Source: Muribaculaceae bacterium
GTDB lineage: Bacteria; Bacteroidota; Bacteroidia; Bacteroidales; Muribaculaceae
DNA length: 56,338 bases
NCBI GenBank assembly: GCA_017964485.1
Contig: JAGCRW010000039.1
Span: 65,365 to 121,702, forward strand
Reading direction: 5' to 3'
Made by a program: the position numbers and the translations under genes
The notes under the pieces: model-generated
Told to the model about the DNA's origin: nothing
The model's database searches: none
What the model saw: only the letters and a program-made list of their open reading frames with translations
Shown: one piece after another, positions 2,006-47,524 of the stretch
How positions within the stretch are numbered: position 1 is the stretch's first letter
How the letters are laid out: each line of letters starts with the position of its first letter

Positions 2006-5000
2006 TTACTTTTTTTTGCTTCCCAGCAGGATGTTGTAGATGCAAGTGATGTCAACACTGGTGATATTGCCATCACCATCAACATCGCTAGTGGCGATAT
2101 AGGTCTCGTCACCATTGAGAAGGTAGTTGTAGAGACATGTGATGTCAACGGCAGTTACCTCACCGTCGCAGTTCACATCGCCATAGACATGGTCGCCACC
2201 TGCAAGGGTCAAAACATCAACCATATTGGACCAGTTGCTGAATTCACTACCGTAAAGCGCCTTAACGTCATAAGCGTAGGTAGTTTCGGGCTGGAGTCCA
2301 GTAACAAGATAGTGAGTGGCAGTGATACCTGCAAACTCCATGGTCTCTCCCTCGCCGCTCTTCTCCAAGATATTGCCTTCGTAGATTTCCACGCCAGTGA
2401 TTACCACGCGTTTCTTCTTAACAGTAGTGGCAAACCTAATCTTTTGACTTGCATCGGCAACGCAGTCGAGCACCACGATGTAGCTGCCCTCGTCGCTGTT
2501 AGGAATTATCAACGACTCAAGATTATCGCCACAGCTCACATTCAGTTGACATTCGGTATCGGTGTCGTAAGCACGAGCAGTGAATTTCACGCTAACCTTG
2601 CCGTTGCTGCCCGAGAGGTCGAGCGCAGGAGTTTGCAAAACGCCGATATTAGTGGTAGAACCTAATCTCACGCCTCCAACAGCTTGATAGACGTAACTTC
2701 CTGCCCAGCCGCTGTTGTCGCAGTAATTGTTGAGCGTGCTAGCGATATTGGTAGTGCTCTCTTTTGTACAATTTGCAAATGTCTCGGTGAAAACAGGAGT
2801 AGATATCGCCAGCGGCTTAACGCGCAGAGTGTAACTGTTGGCAAAGAGGCAAGGCTCCCAATTGGCAGTAAACGAAGTGGCCGCAATGTCAGTTGCCTCG
2901 GTGGCGTGAGGCGCCACAACATTAATTGTAGAAGTGCCAGTGAGTGTAACAGTCTTGCTTTCGGCACCTGTAGTGCTGATGGTGATCGTGCCATTGTGAG
3001 TGCCTGCGCTGGTTGGAGCGTAGGTCACAACCACAGTCACATAATAGCCATCAGGAAGATCGCTGGCAGGTATGACGCTTGGGTTAACGGTAAACATCTC
3101 GTTGTCGCTGGTGAGAGTCACGTCGTCAACAATAAACTGGCCATAAACTCTAAAGCCCTTAGTCGCAGTGCCACCAGCGTAGGCTGTAATGTCGAGTGAC
3201 TCGGAACTTGTGGTGATAGTAGGCGTCTTAAGCAGTGCAGTGCCATTCACATTGATAGAAACCTGCTCAGCGCCAGCGCTGTTGAGGTTGATGGTGGCCG
3301 ATGTAGAGCCAGCTTCGGTAGGAATATACTTGATAGTGAGGGTTGTACCTGCCATAATCTCGGCATTAGTGAAGCTTGCGGGCTCCACGCTATAGATGCT
3401 TGGACCAACCACATTGACGGTCACGCCTTGTGTGAGGTTGCGGCCTTCAAGATTCACCGTAGCAGTGATGGTGTCGCCCACATGTCCGGTCAAGTTAAAT
3501 TCGGTCTTACTTGCGATTATCCTTGGCAGACTGCTCTGCACCAAGATGTAAGAGATTCCGTCGAGGGCATTGATGATGCCGTGACCACGCTGCTTGGGTG
3601 GACTTTGAGGGTTGGTAATGTAGGCCGTATAGGGTGTTGCGGAATTGGCAATGGCATTCTTCACTCCATTTACATCAAGTTCGGGGTCAGCCTGCAGATA
3701 TAGCGCCACCACGCCAGCGGCGATAGGTGTTGACATCGATGTGCCACTCATCTCTCCCCATTTGTGGGTGCGGCCATTATAGGTAACAGAATAAGATGTT
3801 CCATATTGACTGTTATAGGAGTCGTAGCCGTTGAGTGAAGAAATCACAACATGACCAGGAGCGGTGATGAATGGATGGTTATCGCCCTTAACATCGGTGC
3901 CATAGCTTGAGAAATAAGCCACATCGTTGGTGCTGTAAGGGTAATTGTAGCTAGTGCGCGAAGCCATAGCACCCACGCTGATGGTCTTGCTACCACAGAT
4001 GTCATCGCTCATGGTACCATCGGCTTGGCCCTTAGTTAGGGTGTAGCCGCTAACACTTCCCGAAGAGGCGATTACCGAGGCATTGCCACCATCGGTCCAC
4101 GCGTCGATGGTGTTGCCAGCAGCACTGGTCACCATGTAGGCAATGCGGTAGCTGTTGAGCTTCGCCCCCTTCATAGTGGGGTAAATGTAGATGTTTCTAC
4201 GATTGTTAGAAGAGCTAAAGTTGATTTCTACCGAACTGGAGCTGTTGAACCAGGTGCCGAAGCCACTTAACGTGGTGCTGCTAGTAATCTCATCGCTAGT
4301 GTAGAGAATTGAACCAGTGTTTTTGTTCACCACAAGCACTTTAAGCTTGAGCTGGTCGTTGGTCCTGCCCCATATATCCATAATGGCAGTGCCATAATAA
4401 GATGAACCTCCCACGTTGGCACCATTGCTCGACGTCTCGTGCATAACGACAAAAGCATCGTTCTCGCTCGAGAGAGTTCTGGTTGCATAGCCTGCAGCGT
4501 CGGCTTCATTGCCCGAGGAGAGCAGAATCACTGCGCCATATTGGTTGGCGACTTGGTCGTAAGCGCGGCAGATGTAACTCGAGCCGTCGTGAGGGCCAGT
4601 ATTACTACCAAGACTGATGCTGATAACACAAGGCTTGCCTTGAGTCTTGGCATAGTTGGCAATGTATTTCGCACTGTTGACAATCGCGGTTTGTGACAAG
4701 TTATCACCCAAACCGCACATCACTATGTCGCAGTCGGGAGCCATACCGCCATAGTTGCCAACAATTGAACCGCCAGCGCAGCCAGTGGTATGAGTGCCAT
4801 GGCTCTCAGCGTTGTAGTCTGTGGTAAGATTAGCAATCTGCGCTGGAGTGGTGTAGTGATAACCTGGAAGCGTGCTAGTGCCCACTTGTGGCGCTGTGCC
4901 GCCGTTAGCTTCGGTGGCGTTGGGCATATACACTGCTTTCACGCGGTTGTTGCCCGAGGAGTCGAAGAAAAAGCGGTGATTGAAGTCCATGCCAGTGTCG

Positions 5001-5458
5001 ATGACACCCACCACTACGCCTGTGCCTTTGTAGTTCTGCGGCAGTCCATTGTTGATACCGTTCCATGCTTGATAGGCCTTGGTCACGTTCTTGGCCTGGT
5101 CGGTGTACTTCTGCGCAATCTGTGAGATGGCAATCTGCTTCACAACGTCGAGATTGGCAACCTGCTCTACCTTGTTGATGGGAACGAGGGCCGTTACAAC
5201 ATCGTCGAACTCGCCAGTGATGGTCACTCCCAAAGCCTTGAGCTGGGCGGTGGCTGCCGACGACTTGAGCAAAATAAAGCAGTCGATGGTCTCAACGCCA
5301 TTCACCGACTTCGTCTTGCTGAATAGTTTCTTTTCCACTTGCTGTGACATGCCGCGGGCATAGTCACGCAAGAACAACTGGGTTGGCGCACTAATCTTGT
5401 CGTTGGCGACCATCGACAGCGACAGCATCAGTGCAATCAGTAGAATTAGTTTTCTCAT
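2006..5458 (-). CDS. Secreted S8 subtilisin-like protease with C-terminal dockerin
   Basis: Predicted exported endopeptidase of 1150 residues. The start at 5458 (MRKLILLIAL...) gives a clean signal peptide; an in-frame start 16 codons upstream would not. Pro-region about 25-120. Catalytic Asp154 (GVIDTG), His220 (ESHGTHTTG), Asn317 (SSGNEAD, oxyanion hole) and Ser574 (MSGTSMSTP). About 240 residues between Asn317 and Ser574 hold a beta-rich insertion. Residues about 660-880 look like two Ig/HYDIN-type domains, and about 885-1080 a fibronectin-III and jelly-roll-like stretch. The last 65 residues are a dockerin with two Ca loops, GDVNCDGEVT and SDVDGDGNIT. It is a tandem duplicate of the gene upstream. 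The dockerin should bind Ca2+ and perhaps a cohesin; no partner is visible here. Confidence 0.93.
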   Translation of the reverse strand: MRKLILLIALMLSLSMVANDKISAPTQLFLRDYARGMSQQVEKKLFSKTKSVNGVETIDCFILLKSSAATAQLKALGVTITGEFDDVVTALVPINKVEQVANLDVVKQIAISQIAQKYTDQAKNVTKAYQAWNGINNGLPQNYKGTGVVVGVIDTGMDFNHRFFFDSSGNNRVKAVYMPNATEANGGTAPQVGTSTLPGYHYTTPAQIANLTTDYNAESHGTHTTGCAGGSIVGNYGGMAPDCDIVMCGLGDNLSQTAIVNSAKYIANYAKTQGKPCVISISLGSNTGPHDGSSYICRAYDQVANQYGAVILLSSGNEADAAGYATRTLSSENDAFVVMHETSSNGANVGGSSYYGTAIMDIWGRTNDQLKLKVLVVNKNTGSILYTSDEITSSTTLSGFGTWFNSSSSVEINFSSSNNRRNIYIYPTMKGAKLNSYRIAYMVTSAAGNTIDAWTDGGNASVIASSGSVSGYTLTKGQADGTMSDDICGSKTISVGAMASRTSYNYPYSTNDVAYFSSYGTDVKGDNHPFITAPGHVVISSLNGYDSYNSQYGTSYSVTYNGRTHKWGEMSGTSMSTPIAAGVVALYLQADPELDVNGVKNAIANSATPYTAYITNPQSPPKQRGHGIINALDGISYILVQSSLPRIIASKTEFNLTGHVGDTITATVNLEGRNLTQGVTVNVVGPSIYSVEPASFTNAEIMAGTTLTIKYIPTEAGSTSATINLNSAGAEQVSINVNGTALLKTPTITTSSESLDITAYAGGTATKGFRVYGQFIVDDVTLTSDNEMFTVNPSVIPASDLPDGYYVTVVVTYAPTSAGTHNGTITISTTGAESKTVTLTGTSTINVVAPHATEATDIAATSFTANWEPCLFANSYTLRVKPLAISTPVFTETFANCTKESTTNIASTLNNYCDNSGWAGSYVYQAVGGVRLGSTTNIGVLQTPALDLSGSNGKVSVKFTARAYDTDTECQLNVSCGDNLESLIIPNSDEGSYIVVLDCVADASQKIRFATTVKKKRVVITGVEIYEGNILEKSGEGETMEFAGITATHYLVTGLQPETTYAYDVKALYGSEFSNWSNMVDVLTLAGGDHVYGDVNCDGEVTAVDITCLYNYLLNGDETYIATSDVDGDGNITSVDITCIYNILLGSKKK

Positions 5459-5510
5459 TGTAATAAAGGTATTTTGGTGATAATTTTTTCCTGGAATGAA
5501 TATCAAACGA

Positions 5511-5650: not shown

Positions 5651-8017
5651 TCACTCGCCTAGCAGGATATCGTAGACAGTAGTGATGTCGGCACTAGTGA
5701 TAGCACCATCGCCGTTAACGTCGGCAGTGTCGATATAAGTGATATCGCCGTTGAGCAGGTAGTTGTAGAGTTCAGTGATGTCGGATGCGGTCACAGTACC
5801 GTCGCAGTTAACGTCGCCAAAAATTGCCGTACTCACTGGTGCATTGCGGTAAATCACCTCCAGTCCAGGAATGAGCATAGAGTAGTGCTGACCAACTGCT
5901 GACTTGCCCAAACTAACCTGGATATAAGTCAATTGAATGGGATAATTGCTAATGTCGCTTGCGTCAATCCATTGGTCAATGGGCAAATCAATAGTACTTT
6001 CCACATTGGCAGGAACTGAATCAGGTGTGACGGCAGGGAAGCTGATTTTGCCGCCATTGGGGCGCAAAGCAAAGGTGATGCCCGTAACAGGCGCCTCGCC
6101 AGGATTGATGCGCACGCGCAGAGTGTCGGGGAGGCTCCAAAGCACTATCTCCTTGGCCATCCTGTAGTAGTTAACTCGAGCGCTGCTGCCTGTGTAGTTC
6201 ACCTTGACGCCGTTGTCTAATGGCTCAACGGTGTAGTTCTTGCCACCGCTCATGCTCACATTCCATGTGCTCAAGTCCATCTCGGAGTCAATGGGATAAA
6301 CTCGCTTGACAGGTTTCTGCACTGTCACTTTCATACTCAGCTCCTTGTCGCCCAGCACGCCAGTGACGATTGCCTCGCCATCGCGCACGCCTTGAAGCAC
6401 ACCATTGCCAGCGTCAATAGTGACTATGCTCTCATCGCTGCTACTCCAAGAGAGCGCGGCAGGGTCAAGAGGCATAAACGTCTCCCCTACTTGACTCTCC
6501 ACACCCACAACATGGGTGCGGTAGGTGTCGGTTATGATAGAATCGTTGGTTAGTGTCATGTCGTCGGCACTGCCCACGATGGATATAGGCAGCGTGGCGC
6601 TGAGGCCGTTATAAATGGCGGTAATCTCGCCATCGCCAGTGCCTGTGCCGAAGAAAGTGATTCCATCTTTGATGGTGCCTAGACTCTCTGGCGCCTCAAG
6701 TGTGAAACCCTGCACATCGGTGTCGATGAGCATGCCATATTGGTTGTAGCCATAAATCACTGGTGTATAGAGCCCATATTTAGGCACTCGTTGTACCCAG
6801 TCCTTGAAACGTATCTCTGCAATCTCGTTATCGTCGGGGGCGCTGCTCACGAGGAACAGTCCATTACAGTCGGCGCGTTCGGAGCCATCGCTAGGCACGT
6901 TACGCACTCCTAATGCACTGGTATATAACGTAGTTGAGCCGCCGCCATCTAGGTTCATGCCCTCGGTAGCTCCTGCATAGCGCAGCAGGTCTCCCAGATG
7001 AGATGTGCGGCAACCGTCGCTAATCATCGAACGCCCGTCAACTACTAGGAAAATTACCGTTTGACCGCCATTGGCAAAACCTATGCAAGTACGAGGGTGC
7101 ATGTCGGGGTTTCCGTCGTTGATGGTCTCGCCATCATGCAGCATCCAGGGCTGACCACTCACAACCTCGCAAGGGTCAATCTTGGTGCCACCCGCCACAG
7201 CATTCATAGTAACCGTCACCTCGTCACCTTCTTGCAATCCTGTGATAAAATCGGCGGTAGAGCCCTGTCCGTGAAGCACATATCCGCCAGTAGGCACCTC
7301 CATGTCGCCCGCAGTACTTGGTGCGCCTGTGATCACCATCTTGAAGGGCTCAAGGAAGTTGAAAGTGTTACCCTCCACGAGCATCGCCTGCACCTCGCAG
7401 CACGCGCTGGTTTGGTTGGTATAGCCGTAATATCGGTCGTTGTAGAATGTGATGACATTGTTGCTCGCGTCGGTGTTAACGCCGCCAGCTGTGACAGTTA
7501 TGCCGTTATGAGTTACCGAACCGCTAAACGACACCGCATTGATATAGGAGTTGCGGTTCTCATCAAAGACATACTTGTATTCCTCATTGTTAAGACGATA
7601 AACCACACCTTCGCCAATGCAAGTGCCAATGGGCGTTCCCACCATTGACACACCATGCGCAGTGGTGCCGCTAGTGTAGAAAAAGTCGCCATTGATGCCC
7701 GCAAAGTAGCGGTGACCAGGTCCGTCTTTGCGCTGAGCCATCGACGACACAGTCTCGCCACCCGCCGTCTTGTCGTTTCCACTCACGGTGTGCAGGGTGA
7801 GATAGGGATTTGTCATGTCGATGGTGGTATAAAACACGCGCATGTCGGTTGTGCCATTGGTAAAATAGAGCGACGTCTGGCTAGTGCCTGGACCTATCTT
7901 GGCATGAAACAATGTGTCGACAGAATATTCCACTCCAAGCAGACTCCAAGTGTTTCCTGCCCAGCCAACTACTGAGAAAGCGAGCATAAGCAATGCCAAT
8001 AAACTAATCTTCTTCAT
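5651..8017 (-). CDS. Secreted NAGPA-type phosphodiester glycosidase with Ig-like domain and dockerin
   Basis: 788 residues. The start at 8017 (MKKISLLALL...) gives a signal peptide; the 35 codons before it read through the intergenic repeat and are not credible. Residues about 90-400 match the NAGPA/phosphodiester glycosidase family (PF09992): GINGDFF near 110 and MNLDGGGSTTLY near 355. Family members cleave sugar phosphodiesters, as the eukaryotic mannose-6-phosphate uncovering enzyme does; the bacterial substrate is not inferable. Residues about 500-590 form a BIG2-like Ig domain (SWSSSDESIVTID), followed by a beta-sandwich (about 610-725). Residues 732-788 are a dockerin of the DVNCDG type. 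The gene is a tandem paralogue of the next one upstream, collinear over its whole length. Confidence 0.88.
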   Translation of the reverse strand: MKKISLLALLMLAFSVVGWAGNTWSLLGVEYSVDTLFHAKIGPGTSQTSLYFTNGTTDMRVFYTTIDMTNPYLTLHTVSGNDKTAGGETVSSMAQRKDGPGHRYFAGINGDFFYTSGTTAHGVSMVGTPIGTCIGEGVVYRLNNEEYKYVFDENRNSYINAVSFSGSVTHNGITVTAGGVNTDASNNVITFYNDRYYGYTNQTSACCEVQAMLVEGNTFNFLEPFKMVITGAPSTAGDMEVPTGGYVLHGQGSTADFITGLQEGDEVTVTMNAVAGGTKIDPCEVVSGQPWMLHDGETINDGNPDMHPRTCIGFANGGQTVIFLVVDGRSMISDGCRTSHLGDLLRYAGATEGMNLDGGGSTTLYTSALGVRNVPSDGSERADCNGLFLVSSAPDDNEIAEIRFKDWVQRVPKYGLYTPVIYGYNQYGMLIDTDVQGFTLEAPESLGTIKDGITFFGTGTGDGEITAIYNGLSATLPISIVGSADDMTLTNDSIITDTYRTHVVGVESQVGETFMPLDPAALSWSSSDESIVTIDAGNGVLQGVRDGEAIVTGVLGDKELSMKVTVQKPVKRVYPIDSEMDLSTWNVSMSGGKNYTVEPLDNGVKVNYTGSSARVNYYRMAKEIVLWSLPDTLRVRINPGEAPVTGITFALRPNGGKISFPAVTPDSVPANVESTIDLPIDQWIDASDISNYPIQLTYIQVSLGKSAVGQHYSMLIPGLEVIYRNAPVSTAIFGDVNCDGTVTASDITELYNYLLNGDITYIDTADVNGDGAITSADITTVYDILLGE

Positions 8018-8057
8018 ATTGTCAAATAAAAGTTGTGCATCATGCATTTTTTGGTAA

Positions 8058-8131
8058 AACGGGAACGGGAATGTGAACGGGGAAAAAAATCTTCTAGAGG
8101 AGCCGGTCACGATCACGTTCACGAACCTCGA
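8058..8131. repeat. Dispersed repeat, copy 2, with inverted arms
   Basis: Left arm GGGAATGTGAACGGG and right arm GGTCACGATCACGTTCACGA are partly complementary around an AGAGGAGCC core that recurs at 12200-12252. The right arm runs into the 3' end of the gene ending at 8119 and supplies its last codons. Confidence 0.6.
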
Positions 8132-10527
8132 CTCACACCCAGAAGGATGTCGTAAACCGATGTGATGTCGGCTGCGGTTATATCGCCGTCACCATTGACA
8201 TCGCCATTGAGCAACTGTGATGTGTCGCCGTTGAGCAAGAAGTCGTAGAGCGAGGTGATGTCGGCAGCGGTAACAGTTCCGTCGCCATTAACGTCGCCTG
8301 TAATTGGTTCATTCAAAGGTGCATAGCGGTAAATAACTTCAATGGCAGGAATGAGCATGGTATATTGCTGACCATTTGTAGGTTTTGCCATAGAAATCTG
8401 CACGTAATTCAGTTGTATGGGATAATTGCCCATATCATCGGCATCAATCCACTGGTCGATGGGAAAATCGATAGTGCTCTCAACATTGGCTGGCACCGAC
8501 TCGGGTGATACCGAAGGAAAACTGATTTTGCCGCCATGTGGACGCAGGGCGAATGACACACCAGTAACGGGTGCCTCACCTGGATTGATGCGCACACGCA
8601 GAGTATCGGGAACACTCCACAATGTTATTTCCTTGCTCATGCGAAAGTAGTTGGTACGACCGCTGGAGCCAGTGAAATCTACTTTCACGCCCTTTTGATA
8701 AGGCTCGGTGACGACATTTTTACCGCCACTCATTGAAAATGCCCAAGTGCTCAAATCCATCTCGGGATCAAGTTGATATACGTGCTGTACAGGCTTCTGA
8801 ACCGTAACTTTCATTGTCACCGACTGCTCGTTGATAGTGCCAGTAACGCTCGCCTCGCCGTCGCGCACGCCTTGCAGCACACCTGTGTTCTCGTCAATGA
8901 TAACGATGCTCTCATCACTACTTGTCCATGTGAGCGCCTCGGGGTCGAGGGGCACAATATTCTCCCCTACTTGACTCTGAAGTGCGACACGATAGGTGCG
9001 ATAGGTGTCGGTAATGATAGAATCGTTTTTTAACTCTATGGCATCGCCGCTGCCAACAATGGTGAGAGGCGCGCTCACGCTCACATCGCCCAGTGTGCCC
9101 GTGAGAATGCCTGTGCCACTACCGCTAGCAAAAATTGTGCTGCCATCACGAATTGAACCGAGCGACTCGGGGCAAGACAACACCACGCCCTGCACATCGG
9201 TATCAATGAGCATGCCATACTGGTTATAGCCGTAGAACTTGGGGGTATAAACGCCAAATTTAGGCACCACGAGGCTGAAATCAACAAACCGCAGTGAGGC
9301 TATCACGTCATCATCGGGAGCGGTGCACACTGCAAAGAATCCGTTACCGTCGGCACGCTCTACACCATCACTGGGGTGATTGCGCACACCTAAGGCACTT
9401 GTATAGAGCGTTGATGAGCCACCACCATCCACATTCATGGCATCGGTAGCGCCAGCATAGCGCATAATGTCGGCAAGCACTGAGGTGCGAACACCATCGC
9501 TAATAATTGTGCGTCCATCAACCACGAGGAAATACACCTTGTTGCCGCCGTCGCTGTAACCCACTGCCGAACGAGGATGCAACTGGCTAGCGTCGGCACG
9601 TTCGCCCTCGGTGTCAAGCACCACGCCGTCGGCTAGAATCTTGGGATTTCCCGAAATAACCTGCTCAGGAACTACGCTTAGGCTGCCATATTTCCACGTT
9701 GGCGAAATGGTGATGGTGTCGCCTATCTGCAACGTGTTGACTACAGTCGCTGCTGAGCCGCGACCACGAATCACATATTTTCCCACAGGAATTGTCATGT
9801 CGCCAGCGGTGCATGTGTCGCTCTCAACAACCATCCTGTAGGGGCTTGCGCTCTCAAATTGGTCGCCTTCGACCAGGCGCGCCACAAGTTCGGTGCCGCT
9901 GTTAGTCTGGTCGGTGCTGCCATAGTAACGGTCGGTGTAAATCACTATCTTGTTGTTGCACTCGCTAGAATAAGTGTTCACGCCACCAAGCGTGGCAGTC
10001 GTGCCAGCAGGCGTTGTGAGGGTGCCACCAAAAACGAAGGGGTTGACATAGACCTGGCCTTCCTTATCGACAATGAAATTCTTATATAACGCAGCATTGT
10101 TGCGGGCGCGGTAAATTTCACCATCAACTACGGTAGCGCCAACCGGCGTGCCAACAATCGACACACCTCGGCCTGTGGTGCCGCTGGTGTTGAAGAAGTC
10201 GGCGTTGATGCCTGCGAAGTAACGCCTTCCAGGACGGCTTTTGCGCTCTGCCATAGCCGACACACGCTCGTTGCCGGCGAGTTTGTCGGTAGCACATACT
10301 CCCGCCAGCGACAGCCATGGTGTTGTCAAGTCGATTGTGCAGTAGAACACCCTCAACTTACCAGTCTCGTTATGGAACCACAGCGAGGTCTGTGTTGTAC
10401 CTGGCCCCACTTGATTGTGGAACAAGGTATCGACTTGATATTCCACTCCACGCAGCGTCCAAGTGTTGCTTGCCGAGGCGCAAATCGCCAATAACGCCCA
10501 GAATATAAATAAACTTAATCTCTTCAT
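8119..10527 (-). CDS. Secreted NAGPA-type phosphodiester glycosidase with dockerin (paralogue)
   Basis: 802 residues, starting at 10527 with a signal peptide (MKRLSLFIFWALLAICASA). Same architecture as the gene at 5651-8017: PF09992-type catalytic region with GINADFF near 110 and AMNVDGGGSSTLY near 365, a BIG2-like Ig domain (TWTSSDESIVIIDENTG), a beta-sandwich, and a dockerin at about 742-797. This dockerin is of the DVNGDG type, unlike its sister's DVNCDG type. Its DNA is almost identical to that of the unrelated propeller gene at 10674, which suggests exchange of the module. The protein ends LLGVSRGS instead of the usual LLGE/LLGN because the dispersed repeat now provides the last codons and stop. 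Substrate unknown. Confidence 0.88.
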   Translation of the reverse strand: MKRLSLFIFWALLAICASASNTWTLRGVEYQVDTLFHNQVGPGTTQTSLWFHNETGKLRVFYCTIDLTTPWLSLAGVCATDKLAGNERVSAMAERKSRPGRRYFAGINADFFNTSGTTGRGVSIVGTPVGATVVDGEIYRARNNAALYKNFIVDKEGQVYVNPFVFGGTLTTPAGTTATLGGVNTYSSECNNKIVIYTDRYYGSTDQTNSGTELVARLVEGDQFESASPYRMVVESDTCTAGDMTIPVGKYVIRGRGSAATVVNTLQIGDTITISPTWKYGSLSVVPEQVISGNPKILADGVVLDTEGERADASQLHPRSAVGYSDGGNKVYFLVVDGRTIISDGVRTSVLADIMRYAGATDAMNVDGGGSSTLYTSALGVRNHPSDGVERADGNGFFAVCTAPDDDVIASLRFVDFSLVVPKFGVYTPKFYGYNQYGMLIDTDVQGVVLSCPESLGSIRDGSTIFASGSGTGILTGTLGDVSVSAPLTIVGSGDAIELKNDSIITDTYRTYRVALQSQVGENIVPLDPEALTWTSSDESIVIIDENTGVLQGVRDGEASVTGTINEQSVTMKVTVQKPVQHVYQLDPEMDLSTWAFSMSGGKNVVTEPYQKGVKVDFTGSSGRTNYFRMSKEITLWSVPDTLRVRINPGEAPVTGVSFALRPHGGKISFPSVSPESVPANVESTIDFPIDQWIDADDMGNYPIQLNYVQISMAKPTNGQQYTMLIPAIEVIYRYAPLNEPITGDVNGDGTVTAADITSLYDFLLNGDTSQLLNGDVNGDGDITAADITSVYDILLGVSRGS

Positions 10528-10673: not shown

Positions 10674-12095
10674 CTAGTTTCCTAACAAAACATCATATAC
10701 CGACGTGATGTCGGCGGCGGTTATATCTCCGTCTCCGTTAACGTCGCCATTGATGAGGCTTGATGTGTCGCCGTTGAGCAAGAAGTCGTAGAGCGAGGTA
10801 ATATCGGCAGCGGTAACAGTGCCGTCGCCGTTCACATCGCCATAGAGAGCCACGGGACCATCGGGCTCAATGGCGGAGCCAATCTTGTAAACACCCATAC
10901 CATTGTAGGCCTTGAAGGTGAACAGAGTGATTTCCTCATTACCCTCATCATCGTAACCTTTCTCGGTAGCGATGCAGTGCACACGCAAACCGTTATCGTT
11001 AATCTTGCCAACACTGTCGGCTGGAAGCTGCCAGTATTTGGTCATTGTCTCAAGCATATCTCCATCGCCAAGCTCGCAAACATTGATTTGGCAGCCATTA
11101 CCGTTGCCATTCATGTCGGCCTTGACATAAGAGAAGAAATGACGGCCTTCAAGAGTGAACTCAGTCATACCATTGGCTGCCGCGCGTGTGGGCCACAAAT
11201 CCTGGGGCACGTTCTCAAAACTGTCAACAACCGTGCCATCAATATAATAGAGCACTGGAGCACCGTCGAAGCAGTCGATGTAGAAGTACTCGCCGCTATA
11301 CATAGTGTCATCATCGGTGCCAAGCAGCATCTTAATCACAGGAGCAAGACTGAAGCCTACTTTCTCGGCAGGATAGAACTCGGTGAAATCCATGTAGGGG
11401 TCGCCATAGAAACCACCCTCCCAGGTGTCGATGTCTCCGCCTTGTTCGTTGTGCCAGCGATAAACGGTGGGGAAACCAGGATCGTTACTGTTATGGGCAA
11501 TGGTCATAATGTTGCACTCGGCTTCCTCAAGAGTGATGTCTCCAATGAGGTCAAGATAGTCGGTGCGATACACCATATCACCCTTATACATATTGGTCAC
11601 AAGAGTCATCTCACCACTCTCAGTATCCACCTGATAAATAGGAATCTCGATGGCCGAAGCGCTAGTCATAGGTGCCACCCAAATGTGCCCGAAGTTGTCG
11701 CAGCCAATACTTGTATTACCCAAGAACACTCCGTAAGGATTTCCATTGAATGTCAAGTCCAAATCCTTAATGGGCTCACCAGAGAGAGCGTCAAAACAGT
11801 GAATCACACCCTGAAGAATGGTGTCGTTCTTGCCTGTCTCAGGATTGGGGATTATAAGCTGCTTCTCCTGACTGCGCGACACATAAACCACGCCACCAGT
11901 CATCGTGGCGGTGCGGGCGTTAGTGTGGCAGATGGGTGAAGCCAAGTAGGCTTGATTGGCATGCACGCGGTCAAATATCCATAGGTTTTTAACTCCAATG
12001 CCATTCACTTTGGCATAGGTTTGGCCATCGGTTACCGCCCAACTGCTCATGGCAGTCATCACAGCCATAATCGTAAGTAGTATTAATTTTTTCAT
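10674..12095 (-). CDS. Secreted propeller-like protein with C-terminal dockerin
   Basis: 473 residues; the start at 12095 (MKKLILLTIMAVMTAMSSWA) gives a signal peptide, and 14 upstream codons are discarded. Residues about 25-410 contain repeated short beta-rich blocks ending in phrases such as GVVYVSRS, GHIWVAP and IYQVDTESGEMTLV, typical of a beta-propeller. I do not recognise a named family or catalytic residues. The same domain occurs in the next gene (12256) and in the C-terminal half of the GHL10 protein at 23317. Residues 418-473 are a dockerin (DVNGDGTVTAADI, then DVNGDGDITAADI). Probably a binding or scaffold subunit; that role is inference. Confidence 0.85.
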   Translation of the reverse strand: MKKLILLTIMAVMTAMSSWAVTDGQTYAKVNGIGVKNLWIFDRVHANQAYLASPICHTNARTATMTGGVVYVSRSQEKQLIIPNPETGKNDTILQGVIHCFDALSGEPIKDLDLTFNGNPYGVFLGNTSIGCDNFGHIWVAPMTSASAIEIPIYQVDTESGEMTLVTNMYKGDMVYRTDYLDLIGDITLEEAECNIMTIAHNSNDPGFPTVYRWHNEQGGDIDTWEGGFYGDPYMDFTEFYPAEKVGFSLAPVIKMLLGTDDDTMYSGEYFYIDCFDGAPVLYYIDGTVVDSFENVPQDLWPTRAAANGMTEFTLEGRHFFSYVKADMNGNGNGCQINVCELGDGDMLETMTKYWQLPADSVGKINDNGLRVHCIATEKGYDDEGNEEITLFTFKAYNGMGVYKIGSAIEPDGPVALYGDVNGDGTVTAADITSLYDFLLNGDTSSLINGDVNGDGDITAADITSVYDVLLGN

Positions 12096-12199
12096 GTTAC
12101 TGATATTTTGAGTTTGCTTGTTATTAATTAAACACAAAGGGGGAAAACCACCAAGCCTCCCCCTTCACTAAATGTATTAAATCAAATTATGCTTTATTG

Positions 12200-12255: not shown

Positions 12256-13680
12256 TTACTCACCTAACAGGATGTCATAAACTGAAGTGATATCGGCACT
12301 GGTGATAACACCGTCTCCATTAACGTCTCCATGAATGAGGCTGGTAGTATCGCCGTTGAGCAGGAAGTCGTAGAGTGCGGTGATGTCGGCTGCGGTAACG
12401 GTGCCGTCATCGTTAACATCGCCAGTTAAAGCCATTGGCTCATCGGGAACTACGCCCTCACCAACTACATACACGCCCATACCATTATAGCACTTGTACT
12501 CGAAGATGATTGCTGCTTCCTTGCCACCTTCGGTGGTATAGTCGGCAGTAATTGGGTGAATGCGGAGACCGCTATCACTGGTTTGGCCTTGACCGTCGGC
12601 AGGGAATGTCCAGTAACGCTGCATGCCGCTGAATGCCATGCCCTCGCCAAGCTCGCAGATGTTCACCTGGCAAGAGTTAGGAGCGTCGTATTGACCTATT
12701 GGGTAAGCGATGAAGTTGCGGTCGCCAAGTTTGAACTCAGCTATGCCATTGGTGCCAGGCTTTGGCATCAACAGGCTGTCGGCTGCCATCTCTTCTTGAG
12801 AGAGACTGCCAAATCCGTCAACGATAGTACCATCTTGAGCGTAGAGAGTGGGAACTGTAGTAAAGCCGTCGATATAGAAGAACTCACCGCTATAGCGGGT
12901 GTCCTCATCCTCGCCAAGCACGAAGCGTGTGGCAGGAGCAGTACCCCATTGCACTTGACTCTCGGGATAGAACGCTGTGAAATCTACATAGGGATCTCCC
13001 CAGAAGAAGCCATCCCAAGTGTCAACGTCGCCGCCCTGATCGTTGTGCCAACCATAAACAGTTGCGACTCCTGAGCCAGCGCCCATCACATTACATTCGG
13101 CTTCCTCAAAGGTGATATCACCCACAAGGTCAACATAATCGACACGGGCAATGTTGTCGCCCTTGCTCAGAGTTGCCACCAGGGTGAGCTCGCCAGTCTC
13201 AGTATCAACTTGATACAGTGGAATTGAAGCGGAATTGTCAAGAGAGATTGACGCTACCCACACATGGCCAAAGTTATCCTTACCAATGGAGTTCACGCCC
13301 AAGAACACGCCGAATGGCTCACCATTGAGAGTCACATCGAGCGGTGCCATCTCCTCGCCGGTCAAAGCATCGAAGCGATAAATGACGGCGCCCATGATAG
13401 TGTCGCCAGGTTGTGGGATAATCTGCTTTGCCTCACTGCGTGCTATATAGATGACACCGTCTTGCATCACGGCTGTACGTGCCTTCTGATTGCACCAGGC
13501 AAAGTCGGTCTGCAACTCATTGACGCCATAGTGGAAACGGTCAAGCAGCCACAGGTTGCGCATGCTGATGCCGTTAACGGTCTCATAGCCGTTGGGATCT
13601 TTCTTCAAGAGCTTGCCAGCAGCCGAGGCGCTAGAGCATGCAATAGCGATTAAAGTAAGAACGAGTAAAAATTTCTTCAT
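12256..13680 (-). CDS. Secreted propeller-like protein with C-terminal dockerin (paralogue)
   Basis: 474 residues; start at 13680 (MKKFLLVLTLIAIACSSASA), a signal peptide; 19 codons upstream are discarded. It is a full-length paralogue of the gene at 10674: shared blocks include VNGISMRNLWLLDRFH, KARTAVMQDGVIYIARS, GDITFEEAECNVM, VYGWHNDQGGDVDTWDG and GMGVYVVG. Residues 418-474 are a dockerin whose first loop reads DVNDDGTVT and second DVNGDGVIT. No catalytic motif is seen. The Trp- and Asp-rich stretch WHNDQGGDVDTWDG, conserved between the two copies, is a candidate ligand site. Third pair of tandem duplicates in a row on this strand. Confidence 0.85.
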   Translation of the reverse strand: MKKFLLVLTLIAIACSSASAAGKLLKKDPNGYETVNGISMRNLWLLDRFHYGVNELQTDFAWCNQKARTAVMQDGVIYIARSEAKQIIPQPGDTIMGAVIYRFDALTGEEMAPLDVTLNGEPFGVFLGVNSIGKDNFGHVWVASISLDNSASIPLYQVDTETGELTLVATLSKGDNIARVDYVDLVGDITFEEAECNVMGAGSGVATVYGWHNDQGGDVDTWDGFFWGDPYVDFTAFYPESQVQWGTAPATRFVLGEDEDTRYSGEFFYIDGFTTVPTLYAQDGTIVDGFGSLSQEEMAADSLLMPKPGTNGIAEFKLGDRNFIAYPIGQYDAPNSCQVNICELGEGMAFSGMQRYWTFPADGQGQTSDSGLRIHPITADYTTEGGKEAAIIFEYKCYNGMGVYVVGEGVVPDEPMALTGDVNDDGTVTAADITALYDFLLNGDTTSLIHGDVNGDGVITSADITSVYDILLGE

Positions 13681-13845
13681 TTTGCAAAATGTTTTAGATA
13701 TTAATAATGTTTTTTTAGAATATTCTTTACAACCCACAAAGAAAATAAAAACTCAACAAATGACCAAATTTTTCTCACATTTTTTCCACACAAACTAACA
13801 AAATTACACATTATTAATAATAAAGGCCTCAGATTCTCAAACACA

Positions 13846-16812: not shown

Positions 16813-16828
16813 AACTCAAAGTAGTGTT

Positions 16829-17878: not shown

Positions 17879-17922
17879 AATTCTTGAATTTATAATTGAT
17901 TCATTACATTTCTTGGTGTTGA

Positions 17923-19845: not shown

Positions 19846-19869
19846 AATATCCATGATTTACAAGTGTGA

Positions 19870-28641: not shown

Positions 28642-28764
28642 ACACATTATTCTAAACCAGAAAACCGTTTGACTTTTAAATTCTCAATTATGGCTCAAAA
28701 TCCACATTTTTGTTTATTGTTTTATGGCATTTACATAAAAAACAAGTGCTATTTTAATGTAAAA

Positions 28765-28796
28765 TTTGTGCATCTCATCTCAAATGTATATTTTTG
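28765..28796 (+). promoter_or_regulatory. Bacteroidetes promoter for the N-terminal dockerin gene
   Basis: TTTG at 28765-28768 and TATTTTTG at 28789-28796, separated by 20 bases, match the -33/-7 pattern. The start at 28822 is 25 bases downstream. This placement argues against the in-frame upstream ATG at 28669, which lies before the promoter. Confidence 0.7.
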
Positions 28797-28821
28797 CAAA
28801 ACATTAATAAAAACACAAGAC

Positions 28822-34700: not shown

Positions 34701-37644
34701 ATGCACCTGCACTACTCAGAGTTAATGTTGCCTCGGTGTTGCCAGCTACTGTAGGAGCATAGGTCACAGTAATTGTGCCACCTGAATTATTAAGTGAACT
34801 ATTATCAATGCTATAAACATTAGCACCTGTGAGCGAGGCTGTAATATTCTGCGACAAGTTGCTGCCTGTTACCGTCACTGTCTGAGTGTAGGTGCGAGTG
34901 GCATATGCATCAGTGAAGGTCACTGAAGTAGGATTAGCGGTGATAGTGGGACCTTGCGCTGTTCCTGTAATAGGTATTGTAACAGTATTTGCACCAGCGC
35001 CAATGGTGGTGAGCACCAGATTTGCTGTTGAAGTGCCACCAGCTGTTGGCGTCCAAGTCACCGTAACAACCTGTGAAGTAGCATCAAAACTGGATGGAGA
35101 CACACTGTATATGCCGTTAGCATCATTTGTGATTGCTGCAGTGATTTCACCTTGCAGATTATTACCAGTAACAGTTACCGTCTTAGTGTAAGTCTGCCCA
35201 CTATTACCAGTGAAACTGAGACTTGTTGGACTCGCAGTGATAGAAGGAGCTGTATAAACGCCATTACCAGAGAGTGATACTATCACGTTGGTGGCATTAC
35301 TGCTAGCGAGAGTAATGGTACCATTATATGTATTACTAACGTTTGCCGTTGGGTTGAAAGTAACGGTAATAGTAGCACCAGTACCATTTTCGGCAGTATT
35401 TTTGTAGACAGTAGCTTGGGATATTGAATATCCCGTACCACTTACAGTCAGCGAGATGTCTCCTTCAAGATTTGCACCTTGAACGTTAAAAGTCTGAGTG
35501 GCAGTACCACCAGCTGTCACATTGCCGAAGTTAATGCTAGTTGGAGAGACAGTGATTATGGGATCATCTTCACATGGAGCAATATATTTAAGTCCATTCA
35601 ATGCATCAATCTTACCATATTTTCCAAAATGAGCACTGTTAGCACCTGTTACGTATGAATCCCTGACTGCTGTTTGATTCAACACCTCTTTAACGTCATT
35701 AACACTCAAATTGGGATTTGCCTGTAACCATAAAGCCATAATACCAGTAGTGGTTGGAGCTGACATTGATGTGCCACTCATTGAGCCATATCGACTGCCA
35801 TCACTTGTATTGCCAATGGTCATATATTCTTTTGCCTCTGATTGTGATTGAGGATAGTTGTTTGTGTCATATTTATTAACACCAGCAATTAAAATTGCAC
35901 CAGGTGCAGTAATATCTGGATAAACTTTACCATCGGGACCACATCCTGTACTATAGCTAGAGAATGGTGCAATATCACCAACGGTGTATTCATCACTTGT
36001 ATAGGAAACATTATTTGATGTTGTTACCGATTTTCTTGAGACATAAGCACCAACAGTAATGATACCATTAGTTGCAACCTCATTACCAATCGAACATTCA
36101 TCACTACCTTTAGCAAAAGTGTAGTTTCCATAAGTGCCAGCATAATTAGCATCCATAAAAGAACTCCACGTGCTGGCCCAGCAATCAAATTGAACAGCTG
36201 AATTACTAGTGCTAAAAACTAACATTCCAACCGAATAACGGGGAAGAAGTTTGCCGTCACTAGTAGTACTCATGCTGCTAGAACTCTCAGTGGTTGTTCC
36301 CTGAACTGTAATATCATAGTAATATTTTCCGCTATAACTATCAGTACTTCGAGTAATTCTTACACTACCATTACTGAAATACGTCGAGCTAAGCGACACC
36401 GATGAACTTGAGTTTGGTGTAACTGCGTTGGTTGTAGCAACTACTGAATTAGTTTTTTTATCAATAATTATAAACTGGAATTTTAATTGGGTGCCAGCAG
36501 TGCGAGGCCAAACATAGTATTCACTATAATAACTTGAACTATAATAATAAGTATAAGTACAGGATCCATCCACATCGCTATAAGGATTAAACTCAAGTGA
36601 TGTGCACGCAGGTGTTGAACTAGTGGCTGTGCCTCCAAAATAAATATTTTCACCAGCATCATTGCCGGCAGAAAGACACAAAATACGACCTTTTGCTGTA
36701 CCATTACTTGTAAAACTACTATAGGCAGAAGCTAGACTACCTGTTCCATCATGAGCTCCGTATTGAGAACCTAAACTAATATTTACAACACATGGTTGAC
36801 CTGTAGATGTGGCATAATCTTTGATTCTTGACAAAGAGTTAGCAATATTGGTTGAAGTCAAAGAGTTTAGGCCGCATAAGAACAAATCACTCTCTGGTGC
36901 CATTCCAGAGTAGGTAGTACCATTCAGTGTTACAGCTCCACCACCTGCTGTTGTACTAGTGTGTGTGCCATGCGATCCATTCGTAACGTCATAATCAGGG
37001 AAATTGCTAGTATAAACGCTAGAACTCCTACCTGGTGCATACACTCTCTTAACACGAGTGTTGCCATTTGCATCATTGAAAGCAGTATGCTTAAAATGAA
37101 TACCTTGATCAACAACACCAACAATAACACCTTGTCCTGTGTAATTGTCACAAAGTCCGTTGTTCACTCCTTCCCATGATTTGCTAGCGTTAGTCATACT
37201 ACTAGCAACATCTGTTTGGGGTTGCAACAAACGTGCCACGTCAATCTGAATGACATCACTTAAGTTACCAACTTCTTCAATTTTATCAACAGGGATCTTT
37301 GCTGTAACAAATTTATCAAATTTTGTCATCACAATAACACCCTTCGACTCTAAAGAGGAAACGTTGTCGGGATTCTTTAGGTAGATAAACGCGTCAATCA
37401 TTTCAACATTGCCAATAATTTCTATTGGTGCAAAACCAGATTTCACACCACGTTCAATCTCTGGTCGCAATTTAAATTGTCGACCATTGTATTCAGGCAA
37501 TGAGCTTGGATGAACTTTTTGAATTTCATCAGCATGCATCATCAAGAACATCTGCGTTCCCGCCGACAGTTTGTCAATGCTGTCAGCTAGAGCTATCAAT
37601 GTCGCCGCCATGGCGACCATGAAAAACATTAGAATTTTTTTCAT
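31750..37644 (-). CDS. Giant secreted S8 protease with Ig-like repeats and T9SS-like C-terminus
   Basis: 1964 residues; signal peptide 1-20 (MKKILMFFMVAMAATLIALA). Subtilisin triad Asp179 (GVVDQG), His225 (GSHGTHTS), Ser626 (MSGTSMSAP); Asn328 (SAGNDA). Residues about 690-1120 hold five Ig/HYDIN-like repeats of about 80 residues, each starting with a phrase like ITVSPTSINFGNV. Two copies of a 250-residue unit (LNIAKYATIDEAGW and LNIAKYATIDDAGW) follow at about 1125-1660, each ending with an EIGFQTPL phrase. The C-terminus (NTAGMISDKPFQGINIVVTR, then YSDG, ending KKVFK) resembles Bacteroidales T9SS-type sorting domains. Unlike the other S8 protein with a visible end, it has no dockerin. The DNA looks more AT-rich than the dockerin genes. 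Convergent with rsmD. Confidence 0.9.
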   Translation of the reverse strand: MKKILMFFMVAMAATLIALADSIDKLSAGTQMFLMMHADEIQKVHPSSLPEYNGRQFKLRPEIERGVKSGFAPIEIIGNVEMIDAFIYLKNPDNVSSLESKGVIVMTKFDKFVTAKIPVDKIEEVGNLSDVIQIDVARLLQPQTDVASSMTNASKSWEGVNNGLCDNYTGQGVIVGVVDQGIHFKHTAFNDANGNTRVKRVYAPGRSSSVYTSNFPDYDVTNGSHGTHTSTTAGGGAVTLNGTTYSGMAPESDLFLCGLNSLTSTNIANSLSRIKDYATSTGQPCVVNISLGSQYGAHDGTGSLASAYSSFTSNGTAKGRILCLSAGNDAGENIYFGGTATSSTPACTSLEFNPYSDVDGSCTYTYYYSSSYYSEYYVWPRTAGTQLKFQFIIIDKKTNSVVATTNAVTPNSSSSVSLSSTYFSNGSVRITRSTDSYSGKYYYDITVQGTTTESSSSMSTTSDGKLLPRYSVGMLVFSTSNSAVQFDCWASTWSSFMDANYAGTYGNYTFAKGSDECSIGNEVATNGIITVGAYVSRKSVTTSNNVSYTSDEYTVGDIAPFSSYSTGCGPDGKVYPDITAPGAILIAGVNKYDTNNYPQSQSEAKEYMTIGNTSDGSRYGSMSGTSMSAPTTTGIMALWLQANPNLSVNDVKEVLNQTAVRDSYVTGANSAHFGKYGKIDALNGLKYIAPCEDDPIITVSPTSINFGNVTAGGTATQTFNVQGANLEGDISLTVSGTGYSISQATVYKNTAENGTGATITVTFNPTANVSNTYNGTITLASSNATNVIVSLSGNGVYTAPSITASPTSLSFTGNSGQTYTKTVTVTGNNLQGEITAAITNDANGIYSVSPSSFDATSQVVTVTWTPTAGGTSTANLVLTTIGAGANTVTIPITGTAQGPTITANPTSVTFTDAYATRTYTQTVTVTGSNLSQNITASLTGANVYSIDNSSLNNSGGTITVTYAPTVAGNTEATLTLSSAGASSVTVNITGTAQAAIPTLIVEPTSLAFSSDLENSVTKTFAVTGRFINEAVNVELTGANDVFTVSPTTIPANSISEDNPVNVTVTFQSTNEGSFTGTITLACAGVEPKTVTLTAFAHEGGTASDNYLNIAKYATIDEAGWNTSYVNYLYKYTEHINEECAWLTLPVYGAWSACYYNEHPQKWIETNVDNTNNKYAGTTWGNSAELLGSSSYFTSTTARGMGYNSRTNTTQETFSFYVTNTTGVKLLGLGQSRADSNYPASLKVYECTKNADGTLTASTAAIKNESNFATSGTFVLSATDLDESMIYKVEAATYRSYICEIGFQTPLNKPTLKVTPNELSMRAAPGEIASATFNVNGHKLTDNVSVTLSDLNSLFSIDQSIISVADAESGASVTVTFNAPVSEGVYSGTITLTSGELMETVVISGICREGGTANDAYLNIAKYATIDDAGWRTALVDNIYKYTEYYDNDVAWLTMPVYGAFVGARYAINSGTIGSGHPQAWIECSLSNNNTYGGTTWSFNPSYSDPYNGSGTYFTNTTSRALGYNSSRNSEIRNISFYVTNVTAVKLYGIGIAGNYMGGGSSDSYPAAIKIYECTENSDGTLNAATTATATQISGSTSTYNIAVTDLNANKIYKVEVSNYRGYMYEIGFQTPLTTTTATLAQIESSGAKNQKFMISDELVAVYTDADNGLLWCKDEGNSSIVATSIIDGQIDFMRDVNINYDNETQTHNGQVGDWDQSNWIVLKFPEATANNGIAELLNGAVENNKKIAARTVSGRYIDNENYTIEVFPKNGEYTLSFTDDSNYTMNVYSPANFIESNLNINGNTGAVGVHGDHYFFMNPKIQEVCEITYAMWDGEMFVTPDNTEIQGALNVSWERNTTGGVKPSLKEGQNYRFIAVVSRPSKLNVLRGGGDPSDNYVVYPANLSGDGNIVTAINGVYMNSNCEVVGVDYVNTAGMISDKPFQGINIVVTRYSDGSKTATKKVFK

Positions 37645-43411: not shown

Positions 43412-43413
43412 AA

Positions 43414-45231: not shown

Positions 45232-45270
45232 AAAAAAATATCAGGCGCCTCACTCGAGGCACCTGATATT
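45232..45270 (-). terminator. Terminator after the M6 protease
   Basis: AATATCAGG.GCCTC pairs with GAGGC.CCTGATATT (one mismatch), loop ACTC, with a run of seven T on the minus strand. It lies 20 bases past the stop at 45290. Confidence 0.9.
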
Positions 45271-45289
45271 CTTTTATTGTCTTGTCATA

Positions 45290-47524
45290 TTAATTACCTA
45301 GCAAGATGTTGTAAACCATAGTAACATCGCCAGCTGTCACCACTCCGTCGCCATCTTGGTCACCGTTTACAAGAGAATCAGTGTCGCCATTGAGCAGGAA
45401 GTTGTAGAGAGCTGTCACATCGCCAGCGGTTACCACTCCATCACCATCTACGTCGCCAGGAATAACGACAACTGGGCTAAGTTCGCCGTTGTGGTAGATG
45501 GTAAAGTCATCAAGATAACCTGCCATGCTAGTGGATCCTCCTGTGCAGGCTACACGGTAACGTGCAGGCACTTGCACAGTAATGGGGAAGCAGATCGTAT
45601 TCTTCATATTCGGTCCGGCAACAACTGTGGTATTACCCGTTGCGTTTTTCTGTACAGTCCACGTATTACCTTGGTCGGTTGACATGTAAAGCTGCAGGTT
45701 GGTGTTGATATTAGTAGTGTTATAGAAATCAAACGAAATCATATAGGTATCATAAGCCACATCGCTAGTCATGGTTGCAGTGCTTGGCTTTTTCATGGCA
45801 ACAGAAATATTGCCGTTGCCCGCGGTTGCATCAGAAACCGCGGCAGGCCATGCTTTGGCGAGAGTCCAAGTGGAGAGAGTACCTTCGTCGCTTAGAGACG
45901 AGTTATTTGACGTTTTGGGTGTCATAGGCTCAAAGTCCTCGACTGCAGTAACAAAGGTACCGTCTAACTTAACATTGAACTTCACCACATCACCTTCCTC
46001 GTGAATGTTGTAAAGGACATATTGGTTGGGCTTGTTGTTCCAGGCCATCAAGTTGGGCGTCGTCTCATTAGTAATCATTGATACGCCACGAGATCCCGGG
46101 AATGGATCAGTGGGTGACTGTTGAGCTGTAGAACCACCAGCACGCAGCAACTCGTAGTAGAGACGGCTGGCGTTAGCGTTGGGGCCATTATTGTTCCACA
46201 CACTTGCGTTAGTAGAGTCCATGCGGGCTATAGTCATGCCATGACCTGGTGCGTAGGCATCCCACTTGGTAGATGTCTGACGGTTGTCGATAAGGAAGAT
46301 TTCTTTGTTGGTAGGAGTCTTGAGAATGTATCCCTCACCAGTAGTGCTTGTGGGATTGAGAGTGTATTCACCCTCAGCTTTGATAATCTGATAGTTGGCA
46401 AAGCCTGTTGAATAACGGTCATAGAGGCTGTAAGCCACTGGGGTGCGAGCGTTGTTCTGGTAGTTGCCGCCAGCCATGAGATCCCACTCACCGGGGTGCT
46501 GTGACTCGCCTCCAGTAGAAGCGTCGTTGTCCTCATCTGTATCGTAGAGGTCGGGCAATCCCAACACATGGCTGAACTCGTGGCAAATGGTACCTATGCC
46601 GTCAAAGATGCCACTGCTTTTGCCATAGATGTACTCGGCCGAACATGCATAGTCGCGTATGTACTTACCATCATATTTCGTGTAGGTATAGAACGCTGAG
46701 CGGTGCGGCCAAATGTGATTTGGGCTACTGGGGTCGCTGCTCGATGGGGTATCGGCATAGATAAAGTAAATAAGGTCAACAATGCCGTTGTTGTCAAGGT
46801 CATACTGACTGAAATCCACGTCAGGGTTAGCTTTCTGGACTGCGTTTAGAAAGATGTTATAAGCATATTGATCACCTTGATTAACATTGTAATTCACCTC
46901 ATAAGGACCCACCACGTCAAACTGTGGTGTGAAGATGCCATTGCTGTTGTCGTGGAAGTAGTCACGCACGCTACCAGTACAGCTGCCGTAAGGGTTTGCT
47001 GTGCCGTCCTCGTTGGTGTATCCAGTATAATTTTCCTGATTTATCATGTTGGTGTAGAAGTCAATCACATCACTACGTGTGAAATGAGAATCCTTAAACT
47101 CAACAAGAATTACCAAACCATGGAAATTGTTGTAGTTGATGCTGTTGAGATGGGGCAGCGCGTCGCGCTGAGCGCGGGCACGGATGCCAGCAGCAATTTG
47201 ACGCTCAGAGCGCAGATTCTTGCCAGTTGCCTGCAGCCAAGCATTGTCGCTTGCCGAACGTTTGTCGGCATCGCGGGCAATAAGTTTGCTGGCAACCACT
47301 TCGTCATTGATAAGAGTGCCATAGGCATAATAGCCTTGGGCGTTCTTAACGATGGTGTAGCCATCAGCAGTAGTCATGTAGTGCATGAACTCATCGCCCT
47401 TAATTCTCACTGTCAGTTCCTCGCCATTAGGCTGAGTAACCTTCTGTGGTGTGGGGATGGCTGGCACAGCACTTGCCACCAGGCAAGCCAGCGCCATAAA
47501 AACGGTAAAGAATAATTTTTTCAT
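45290..47524 (-). CDS. Secreted M6-family metalloprotease with C-terminal dockerin
   Basis: 744 residues, signal peptide 1-19. Residues about 20-120 are a pro-region (HYMTTADGYTIVKNAQGYYA, typical of M6 pro-domains). The catalytic zinc motif is HEFSHVLGLPDLYD, with His315, Glu316 and His319. Family M6 members (immune inhibitor A type) cleave host or matrix proteins. Residues about 540-680 are a beta-sandwich (jelly-roll/MAM-like). The last 60 residues are a dockerin whose loops read DVDGDGVVTAGDV and DQDGDGVVTAGDV, the most Asp-rich pair here and the only one with Gly before the last Ca-binding Asp. Single gene with a strong terminator. Confidence 0.92.
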   Translation of the reverse strand: MKKLFFTVFMALACLVASAVPAIPTPQKVTQPNGEELTVRIKGDEFMHYMTTADGYTIVKNAQGYYAYGTLINDEVVASKLIARDADKRSASDNAWLQATGKNLRSERQIAAGIRARAQRDALPHLNSINYNNFHGLVILVEFKDSHFTRSDVIDFYTNMINQENYTGYTNEDGTANPYGSCTGSVRDYFHDNSNGIFTPQFDVVGPYEVNYNVNQGDQYAYNIFLNAVQKANPDVDFSQYDLDNNGIVDLIYFIYADTPSSSDPSSPNHIWPHRSAFYTYTKYDGKYIRDYACSAEYIYGKSSGIFDGIGTICHEFSHVLGLPDLYDTDEDNDASTGGESQHPGEWDLMAGGNYQNNARTPVAYSLYDRYSTGFANYQIIKAEGEYTLNPTSTTGEGYILKTPTNKEIFLIDNRQTSTKWDAYAPGHGMTIARMDSTNASVWNNNGPNANASRLYYELLRAGGSTAQQSPTDPFPGSRGVSMITNETTPNLMAWNNKPNQYVLYNIHEEGDVVKFNVKLDGTFVTAVEDFEPMTPKTSNNSSLSDEGTLSTWTLAKAWPAAVSDATAGNGNISVAMKKPSTATMTSDVAYDTYMISFDFYNTTNINTNLQLYMSTDQGNTWTVQKNATGNTTVVAGPNMKNTICFPITVQVPARYRVACTGGSTSMAGYLDDFTIYHNGELSPVVVIPGDVDGDGVVTAGDVTALYNFLLNGDTDSLVNGDQDGDGVVTAGDVTMVYNILLGN

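Follow-up and report, generated by a model that had tools for sequence, protein, structure and literature searches.

The best-known scaffoldins are clostridial, and clostridial anchors use SLH or sortase. Here we describe a 56,338-nucleotide stretch of the genome of a Muribaculaceae bacterium (GenBank assembly GCA_017964485.1, contig JAGCRW010000039.1, positions 65,365 to 121,702; hereafter the window), in which an earlier note, made from the letters alone, had picked out eight secreted proteins with dockerins. It belongs to contig C98, in an assembly of 2.73 Mb and 120 contigs (90.66% complete, contamination 3.17%). We conclude that these dockerins are most probably the plugs of a cohesin-dockerin docking system at the cell surface, by which the bacterium probably displays its own proteases and sugar-cutting enzymes on its own surface.

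As in the clostridial cellulosome, the dockerins are of type I by profile and their candidate partners have the cohesin fold. By contrast with the cellulosome, the payload here is led by leucine-rich repeat (LRR) and protease proteins, the anchor carries LRR/Big_2, and tails of the type IX secretion system (T9SS) occur in place of SLH or sortase anchors. Comparisons with other published systems draw on parts of the papers cited. In Candidatus Stygibacter (Cloacimonadota; PMC8542988), a scaffoldin with tandem cohesins attaches to the bacterium's own surface by a conserved C-terminal domain, and secreted enzymes that include S8 and C25 peptidases bear C-terminal dockerins in a system not based on cellulases. 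The arrangement described here is similar in these respects. However, four dockerin enzymes and one scaffoldin of 3,755 amino acids (aa) with CBM2/CBM3 are named there, in another phylum, whereas our genome has 89 dockerin open reading frames (ORFs), pairs of an anchor and a small scaffold, cohesins that fall under the Pfam cut-off and dockerins in the place of a T9SS tail. Many dockerins and few cohesins are also found in Ruminococcus albus (PMC6118326), where each cohesin perhaps retains one dockerin protein at the cell surface with no large complex, and where a single cohesin is thought to be employed as a surface hook; unlike R. albus, the bacterium studied here is Gram-negative and its anchors are putatively T9SS-attached. 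The Limousia mucinolysome (PMC12997984), compared by its description only, is likewise a gut cohesin-dockerin complex with a target other than cellulose, but it is directed at mucin.

Among Bacteroidetes, the camel-rumen bins #49 and #58 have 11 dockerins and no cohesin, and the part of that paper used here gives no anchor, T9SS tail or architecture for them (PMC6071333). The same paper reports cohesins in certain Bacteroidetes, with no description of them in the part used here, and places the Bacteroidetes bin #136 among the bins that have two to four tandem cohesins. The role of dockerins in rumen Bacteroidetes has been called 'not defined yet' (PMC7480376), and one survey reports cohesins in Firmicutes_A bins only (PMC9177762). 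T9SS-tailed cohesins in Bacteroidales were not described in the literature searched (titles and abstract openings of mostly open-access papers). The present analysis finds cohesins missed by Pfam on T9SS-tailed proteins of this genus. It also finds proteins rich in cohesins in several further families of Bacteroidales.

In the system that we propose, anchor proteins consisting of BspA-type LRR and/or Big_2, one or more cohesins and a T9SS type A sorting domain would be exported by the T9SS and retained at the surface. A small scaffold or adaptor encoded beside the anchor, with the layout signal peptide-(cohesin)n-dockerin, would extend the anchor, n being one in this genome and up to six in congeners. 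Some ninety secreted proteins would dock by a dockerin with a species-particular signature, plugging into the anchor cohesins directly or via the small scaffold; they would include C10, S8 and M6 proteases, phosphodiester glycosidases and GHL10, together with CotH, amylase, FGE-sulfatase and LRR proteins. Binding, anchoring and surface location are what we infer. The computational evidence consists of the homology and fold of the cohesins, the architecture of the proteins, a swap of protein tails and homogenisation of the dockerins.

All eight proteins named in the earlier note do carry dockerins. Each matches Pfam Dockerin_1 (PF00404) above the cut-off (E 4.6e-13 to 4.6e-8) with two F-hand repeats of about 22 residues, as type I dockerins have. 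The dockerin is C-terminal in seven of them; in the protein at 28822 it is N-terminal, behind the signal peptide. Across the genome there are 95 Dockerin_1 stretches at E≤1, 91 of them above the cut-off, which is far above chance. In the DNA taken around these stretches they fall into 89 distinct ORFs, where the dockerin is C-terminal (within eight residues of the end) in 61, N-terminal in 18 and internal in 10. A crude pattern, used without a trained predictor, recognised a signal peptide in 85 of the 89. A profile of 21 of these dockerins ranked the clostridial dockerin 4fl4 first (E 4.2e-9), and the best 60 of its 139 matches include many EF-hand proteins (calmodulins). The one named relative, a Muribaculaceae MAG from goat reticulum, gave a match confined to the dockerin. 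In an AlphaFold2 model of the small cohesin-dockerin protein described below, helices at residues 175-187 and 206-216 follow two calcium loops (pLDDT of the block 93-97), giving the paired loop-helix fold. Helix position 17, which we take to be a recognition site, is tyrosine in both repeats of all 44 dockerins of the commonest length (84 are full-length in all).

Among the 81 dockerin proteins outside the window, the payload by Pfam is LRR_5 (14 proteins), C10 peptidase (10), CotH (9), FGE-sulfatase (4), alpha-amylase (4), S8 (3) and Amidase_3 (3), with one each of GH53, GH18, NAGPA and M6. This tally covers the 25 commonest families per half, ranked by members, and the remaining families have at most one member each. 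Cellulases are not the main payload. One protein of the dockerin set has a SusD_RagB match and another a SusF_SusE match, so that docking proteins may mix with parts of polysaccharide utilization loci (PULs).

The earlier note had also stated that no cohesin was in sight. This is correct for the window, and over the whole genome the Pfam cohesin family PF00963 gave nothing above its cut-off (best 11.6 bits against 24.1). It does not hold for the genome, where a profile search found five divergent cohesins on four proteins of contigs C97 and C70; the E-values of this search are inflated because the genome's own rows are in the profile alignment. The lack of any cohesin-like partner, which the note had named as grounds for giving up its idea, is thus not what the genome presents. 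Both homology to certified cohesins and the cohesin fold were found for this group of domains, in a comparison where the VIA-align rows span residues 19-162 only and the rmsd exceeds 17 in two of 50. The nearest solved relative of a profile made from these cohesins only is the NagJ cohesin of Clostridium perfringens (E 0.0019), which by its entry titles is there a module of a glycosidase. In the genus, PF00963 passes its cut-off in 19 of 41 genomes, it matches 24 of the 44 rows in the genus alignment at E≤0.01, and a six-cohesin scaffoldin of the congener G060 has no match at E≤0.1. Because that scaffoldin escapes PF00963 too, we do not read the silence of PF00963 as absence of cohesins.

The architecture of the four proteins fits anchors and a scaffold. 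On C97, a 219-aa protein that consists of signal peptide, cohesin and dockerin adjoins a 1657-aa LRR_5/Big_2 protein with two cohesins, and C70 encodes two LRR_5-dockerin-cohesin proteins of 676 and 672 aa. With a profile made from the tails of 37 proteases in other genera, a T9SS tail was found at the extreme end of the three larger proteins (E 4.5e-6, 1.8e-7 and 3e-10). A T9SS type A sorting domain is therefore seen in the cohesin proteins (three of four) and is not characteristic of the dockerin proteins. These data support the suggestion of the earlier note that the dockerins belong to an assembly on the surface of this Bacteroidales cell, with its scaffold encoded in another part of the genome. 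The pair of anchor and scaffold recurs in congeners, where the scaffold has a C-terminal dockerin and one cohesin (G040, G079, G146, G135), two (G135) or six (G060, G135, G157, G175). Congener domains were collected with a model from seven seeds, one of them a domain of our genome, and counted with the same model, whose rows include some from G157, G175 and our genome. Cohesins occur in 10 of 10 genus genomes. Between the dockerin of our own scaffold and 26 further dockerins of the genome, identity is 51-83%. Of 149 family genomes, 148 have T9SS tails. The number of tails was considered as a further character, but the 8-19 found in ten genus genomes compare with 0 to at least 36 elsewhere and nothing is claimed from this.

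The genus has at least two families of proteases in which the dockerin takes the position of the T9SS tail. When the best M6 locus of each genome was compared, the protein ended in a dockerin in 10 of 10 genus genomes and in none of 20 loci from other genera, these being the best-scoring of 84 other genomes with a match. The ends of those 20 look like T9SS sorting domains, 12 of them by a profile of ours, and TIGR04183 matches 14 of the 30 M6 tails at E≤0.1. For the C10 protease, a dockerin end was found in all nine readable genus loci (eight by profile, the weakest at E 2e-4, and one by reading; one more locus is truncated) as compared with none of 17 readable loci from other genera (three truncated), drawn from 115 genomes with a match. 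The T9SS tails of the latter were assigned mostly by reading, with TIGR04183 in at least four of the 17 frames. Fisher values are 3e-8 and 3e-7; these do not count independent events, and one swap per family would suffice. Contig C114 of our genome still encodes an M6 paralogue that gives a weak match to a T9SS tail.

The dockerins also vary genome by genome. Those of M6 proteases, C10 proteases and scaffolds have a mean identity of 60.4% within a genome versus 42.7% between genomes within a protein family (24 and 109 pairs; reached in 0 of 2000 permutations). The sample comprised 27 dockerins from 10 genomes, with only the best-scoring copy per protease; the scaffold row of G017 is half a dockerin and that of G095 comes from a Coh-Doc-Coh-Doc protein. 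By comparison, no homogenisation was seen in the T9SS tails that these two protease families have in other genera (23.4% in five pairs versus 26.7%). Enzyme and scaffold dockerins have signatures in common, namely TGSD...YN in three of three from G040 and D(L/M)N...IN in three of three from G146. Homogenisation of this kind fits selection by a common socket.

At least 39-40 dockerin matches were found in each of the 10 genus genomes, ours included, among 149 family genomes. Elsewhere in the family, 30 matches were found in a single genome, from a second genus; 30 further genomes have one to six and 108 have none (E≤1e-5). Outside the genus, a cohesin match occurs in 17 of 31 genomes with a dockerin and in 15 of 108 without (Fisher 9e-6). 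In 344 Bacteroidales genomes, scored on the best 18 dockerin and 12 cohesin candidates of each, cohesins were found in 8 of 12 dockerin-rich genomes (at least nine matches) versus 32 of 332 others (Fisher 6e-6); the threshold of nine was picked after seeing the table, our genome with its rows in the profile is included, and phylogeny is ignored. Other Bacteroidales families encode proteins of 3 to 10 tandem cohesins alongside dockerin proteins, with T9SS-like tails that were recognised by eye and confirmed by profile only in L242-L244. The cohesin-dockerin arrangement is not confined to this genus. One locus of another family (L233; G187:C25:205001-225000) encodes adjoining proteins of 2466 and 1239 aa with eight and five tandem cohesins.

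Several observations weigh against a docking system of this kind. The genome, which is 90.7% complete, has five cohesins for 89 dockerin ORFs, and we found no protein in it with more than two cohesins, as against the six-cohesin scaffoldins of four congeners. The tail evidence is modest: TIGR04183 is above its cut-off in one cohesin protein (24.5 versus 23 bits), barely below in another (22.4) and without a match in the 1657-aa protein, and PF18962 is below its cut-off in both C70 anchors. Only four dockerin proteins have a T9SS-tail match (PF18962, E≤0.1) and in 61 of the 89 ORFs the dockerin is the last module, so most dockerin proteins are without a known route across the outer membrane. 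Copying of a dockerin cassette could contribute to the homogenisation, or explain it alone. The two domains also part company in some genomes. Among non-genus family genomes, 14 of the 31 with dockerins have no match to the cohesin profile, and 15 of the 32 with cohesins (e.g., G128, G046, G139) gave no Pfam dockerin match at E≤1e-5; in these, the dockerins may be divergent or the cohesins may serve some other use. The second-genus genome with 30 dockerins (G001; 85% complete, 230 contigs) has no cohesin-profile match, possibly because of the incomplete assembly or a socket that is more divergent still. Four of the 12 dockerin-rich Bacteroidales genomes (G271, G292, G450 and G508, of other families) also lack a match to this profile and may have another cohesin type.

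The earlier note had offered, as its alternative, a dockerin used for another purpose, as a Ca-stabilised anchor or an export tag. Because the dockerin replaces a T9SS-like tail in two protease families, it may also share in export. One form of this, which we consider possible yet rather unlikely, is hitch-hiking: enzymes without a T9SS C-terminal domain (CTD) would fold in the periplasm, plug into the cohesins of T9SS-tailed carriers and cross the translocon as cargo. T9SS substrates cross folded and require a folded C-terminal domain (PMC9251779), so that carriage as docked cargo is possible; the part of that paper used here describes no piggyback export by the T9SS. Hitch-hiking would explain the tail replacement in two protease families, the free N- or C-terminal position of the dockerin and the few cohesins for many dockerins. 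Alternatively, the dockerin could itself be a T9SS export signal, a second kind of sorting domain read by the translocon, in which case the cohesins would matter little. The tail position that it holds in two protease families, the 61 of 89 ORFs that end in it within eight residues, the near-universal T9SS tails of the family and a gene for the T9SS component PorQ in the window all agree with this. We regard it as improbable, however, in view of the 18 N-terminal dockerins, which are unlike a C-terminal signal, the four proteins in which a dockerin and a T9SS-tail match occur together, and the cohesins in every one of the 10 genus genomes.

It is quite improbable that the dockerins are mere calcium-stabilised caps that have no partner and were spread by cassette duplication. 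In favour of such caps, gene conversion can give homogenisation, and no protein of our genome passes PF00963. Yet five cohesins are present, conservation extends beyond the calcium ligands to the tyrosine at position 17 of both repeats, and the signature shifts jointly from genome to genome with the scaffold dockerin included. Because the dockerins are homogenised genome by genome, we disfavour a structural role without a partner. A highly improbable explanation is that another member of the community supplies the scaffoldins on which the proteins dock, or that the dockerin genes entered the assembly as contamination, from a clostridium that makes cellulosomes. It would draw on the clostridial origin of the best-known scaffoldins and on an assembly that is fragmented and has 3.17% contamination, but the window dockerin genes share a contig with PorQ and a SusC/SusD-like cluster (by eye), all 10 genus genomes are dockerin-rich, and the genome encodes its own cohesins, with T9SS tails on three of four carriers.

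In the window, six of the attached modules named in the earlier note were borne out by Pfam; the label 'propeller-like' given to the other two proteins was neither confirmed nor refuted, as no weighty family other than the dockerin was found in them. On the minus strand, 2006..5506 is an S8 subtilase (Peptidase_S8, E 2.9e-28) with a C-terminal dockerin at 2021-2182 (E 4.6e-13). Next come two NAGPA phosphodiester glycosidases with Big_2 (5651..8122, dockerin 5654-5818, and 8119..10527, dockerin 8134-8295), the two secreted proteins with no other Pfam family (10674..12137, dockerin 10677-10841, and 12256..13737, dockerin 12259-12423), a GHL10 glycosidase-like protein (23317..26709, dockerin 23320-23484) and an M6 metalloprotease (45290..47524, dockerin 45293-45457) whose examined homologues in other genera have a T9SS-like tail; all of these dockerins are C-terminal. 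The plus-strand gene 28822..30321 (ORF 28669-30321, ATG 28822) encodes an N-terminal dockerin (28894-29055) and a Cthe_2159-type carbohydrate-binding domain. A ninth dockerin protein, S8-like by eye, enters the window as an open ORF on the minus strand (2..1801); it is part of a frame of 1314 aa whose C-terminal dockerin, at C98:63269-63427, falls beyond the window. An S8 subtilase paralogue without a dockerin (31750..37644, minus strand) is 33% identical over 928 aa to the protein at 2006 (E 1e-111). Its tail resembles a T9SS CTD by eye only, and neither T9SS-tail profile matched it. We therefore dropped this S8 pair as an example of a tail swap within a single genome and keep it as a lead.

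Among neighbouring genes, PorQ lies at 52308..53342 on the plus strand (NF033711, E 8.9e-116, above cut-off). A SusC/SusD-like pair and two small secreted genes (15100-22950, minus strand, by eye) lie amid the dockerin genes in a PUL-like arrangement. Two short overlapping frames at 14006-14808 (minus strand) have by eye the look of a broken transposase, a Wzc-like chain-length/tyrosine kinase protein at 47726-50197 (plus strand) has by eye a long YGYGYG tail, and a membrane protein at 27446-28615 (minus strand) has a CHASE2 domain (Pfam E 1.7e-15).

An improved cohesin profile would alter counts of cellulosome-like systems in metagenomes. The swap of a dockerin for a tail leads to a clear prediction on the display of proteases by Gram-negative bacteria, and it raises the matter of the route by which docked proteins without a CTD leave the cell. 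If hitch-hiking were true, one carrier would export many enzymes.

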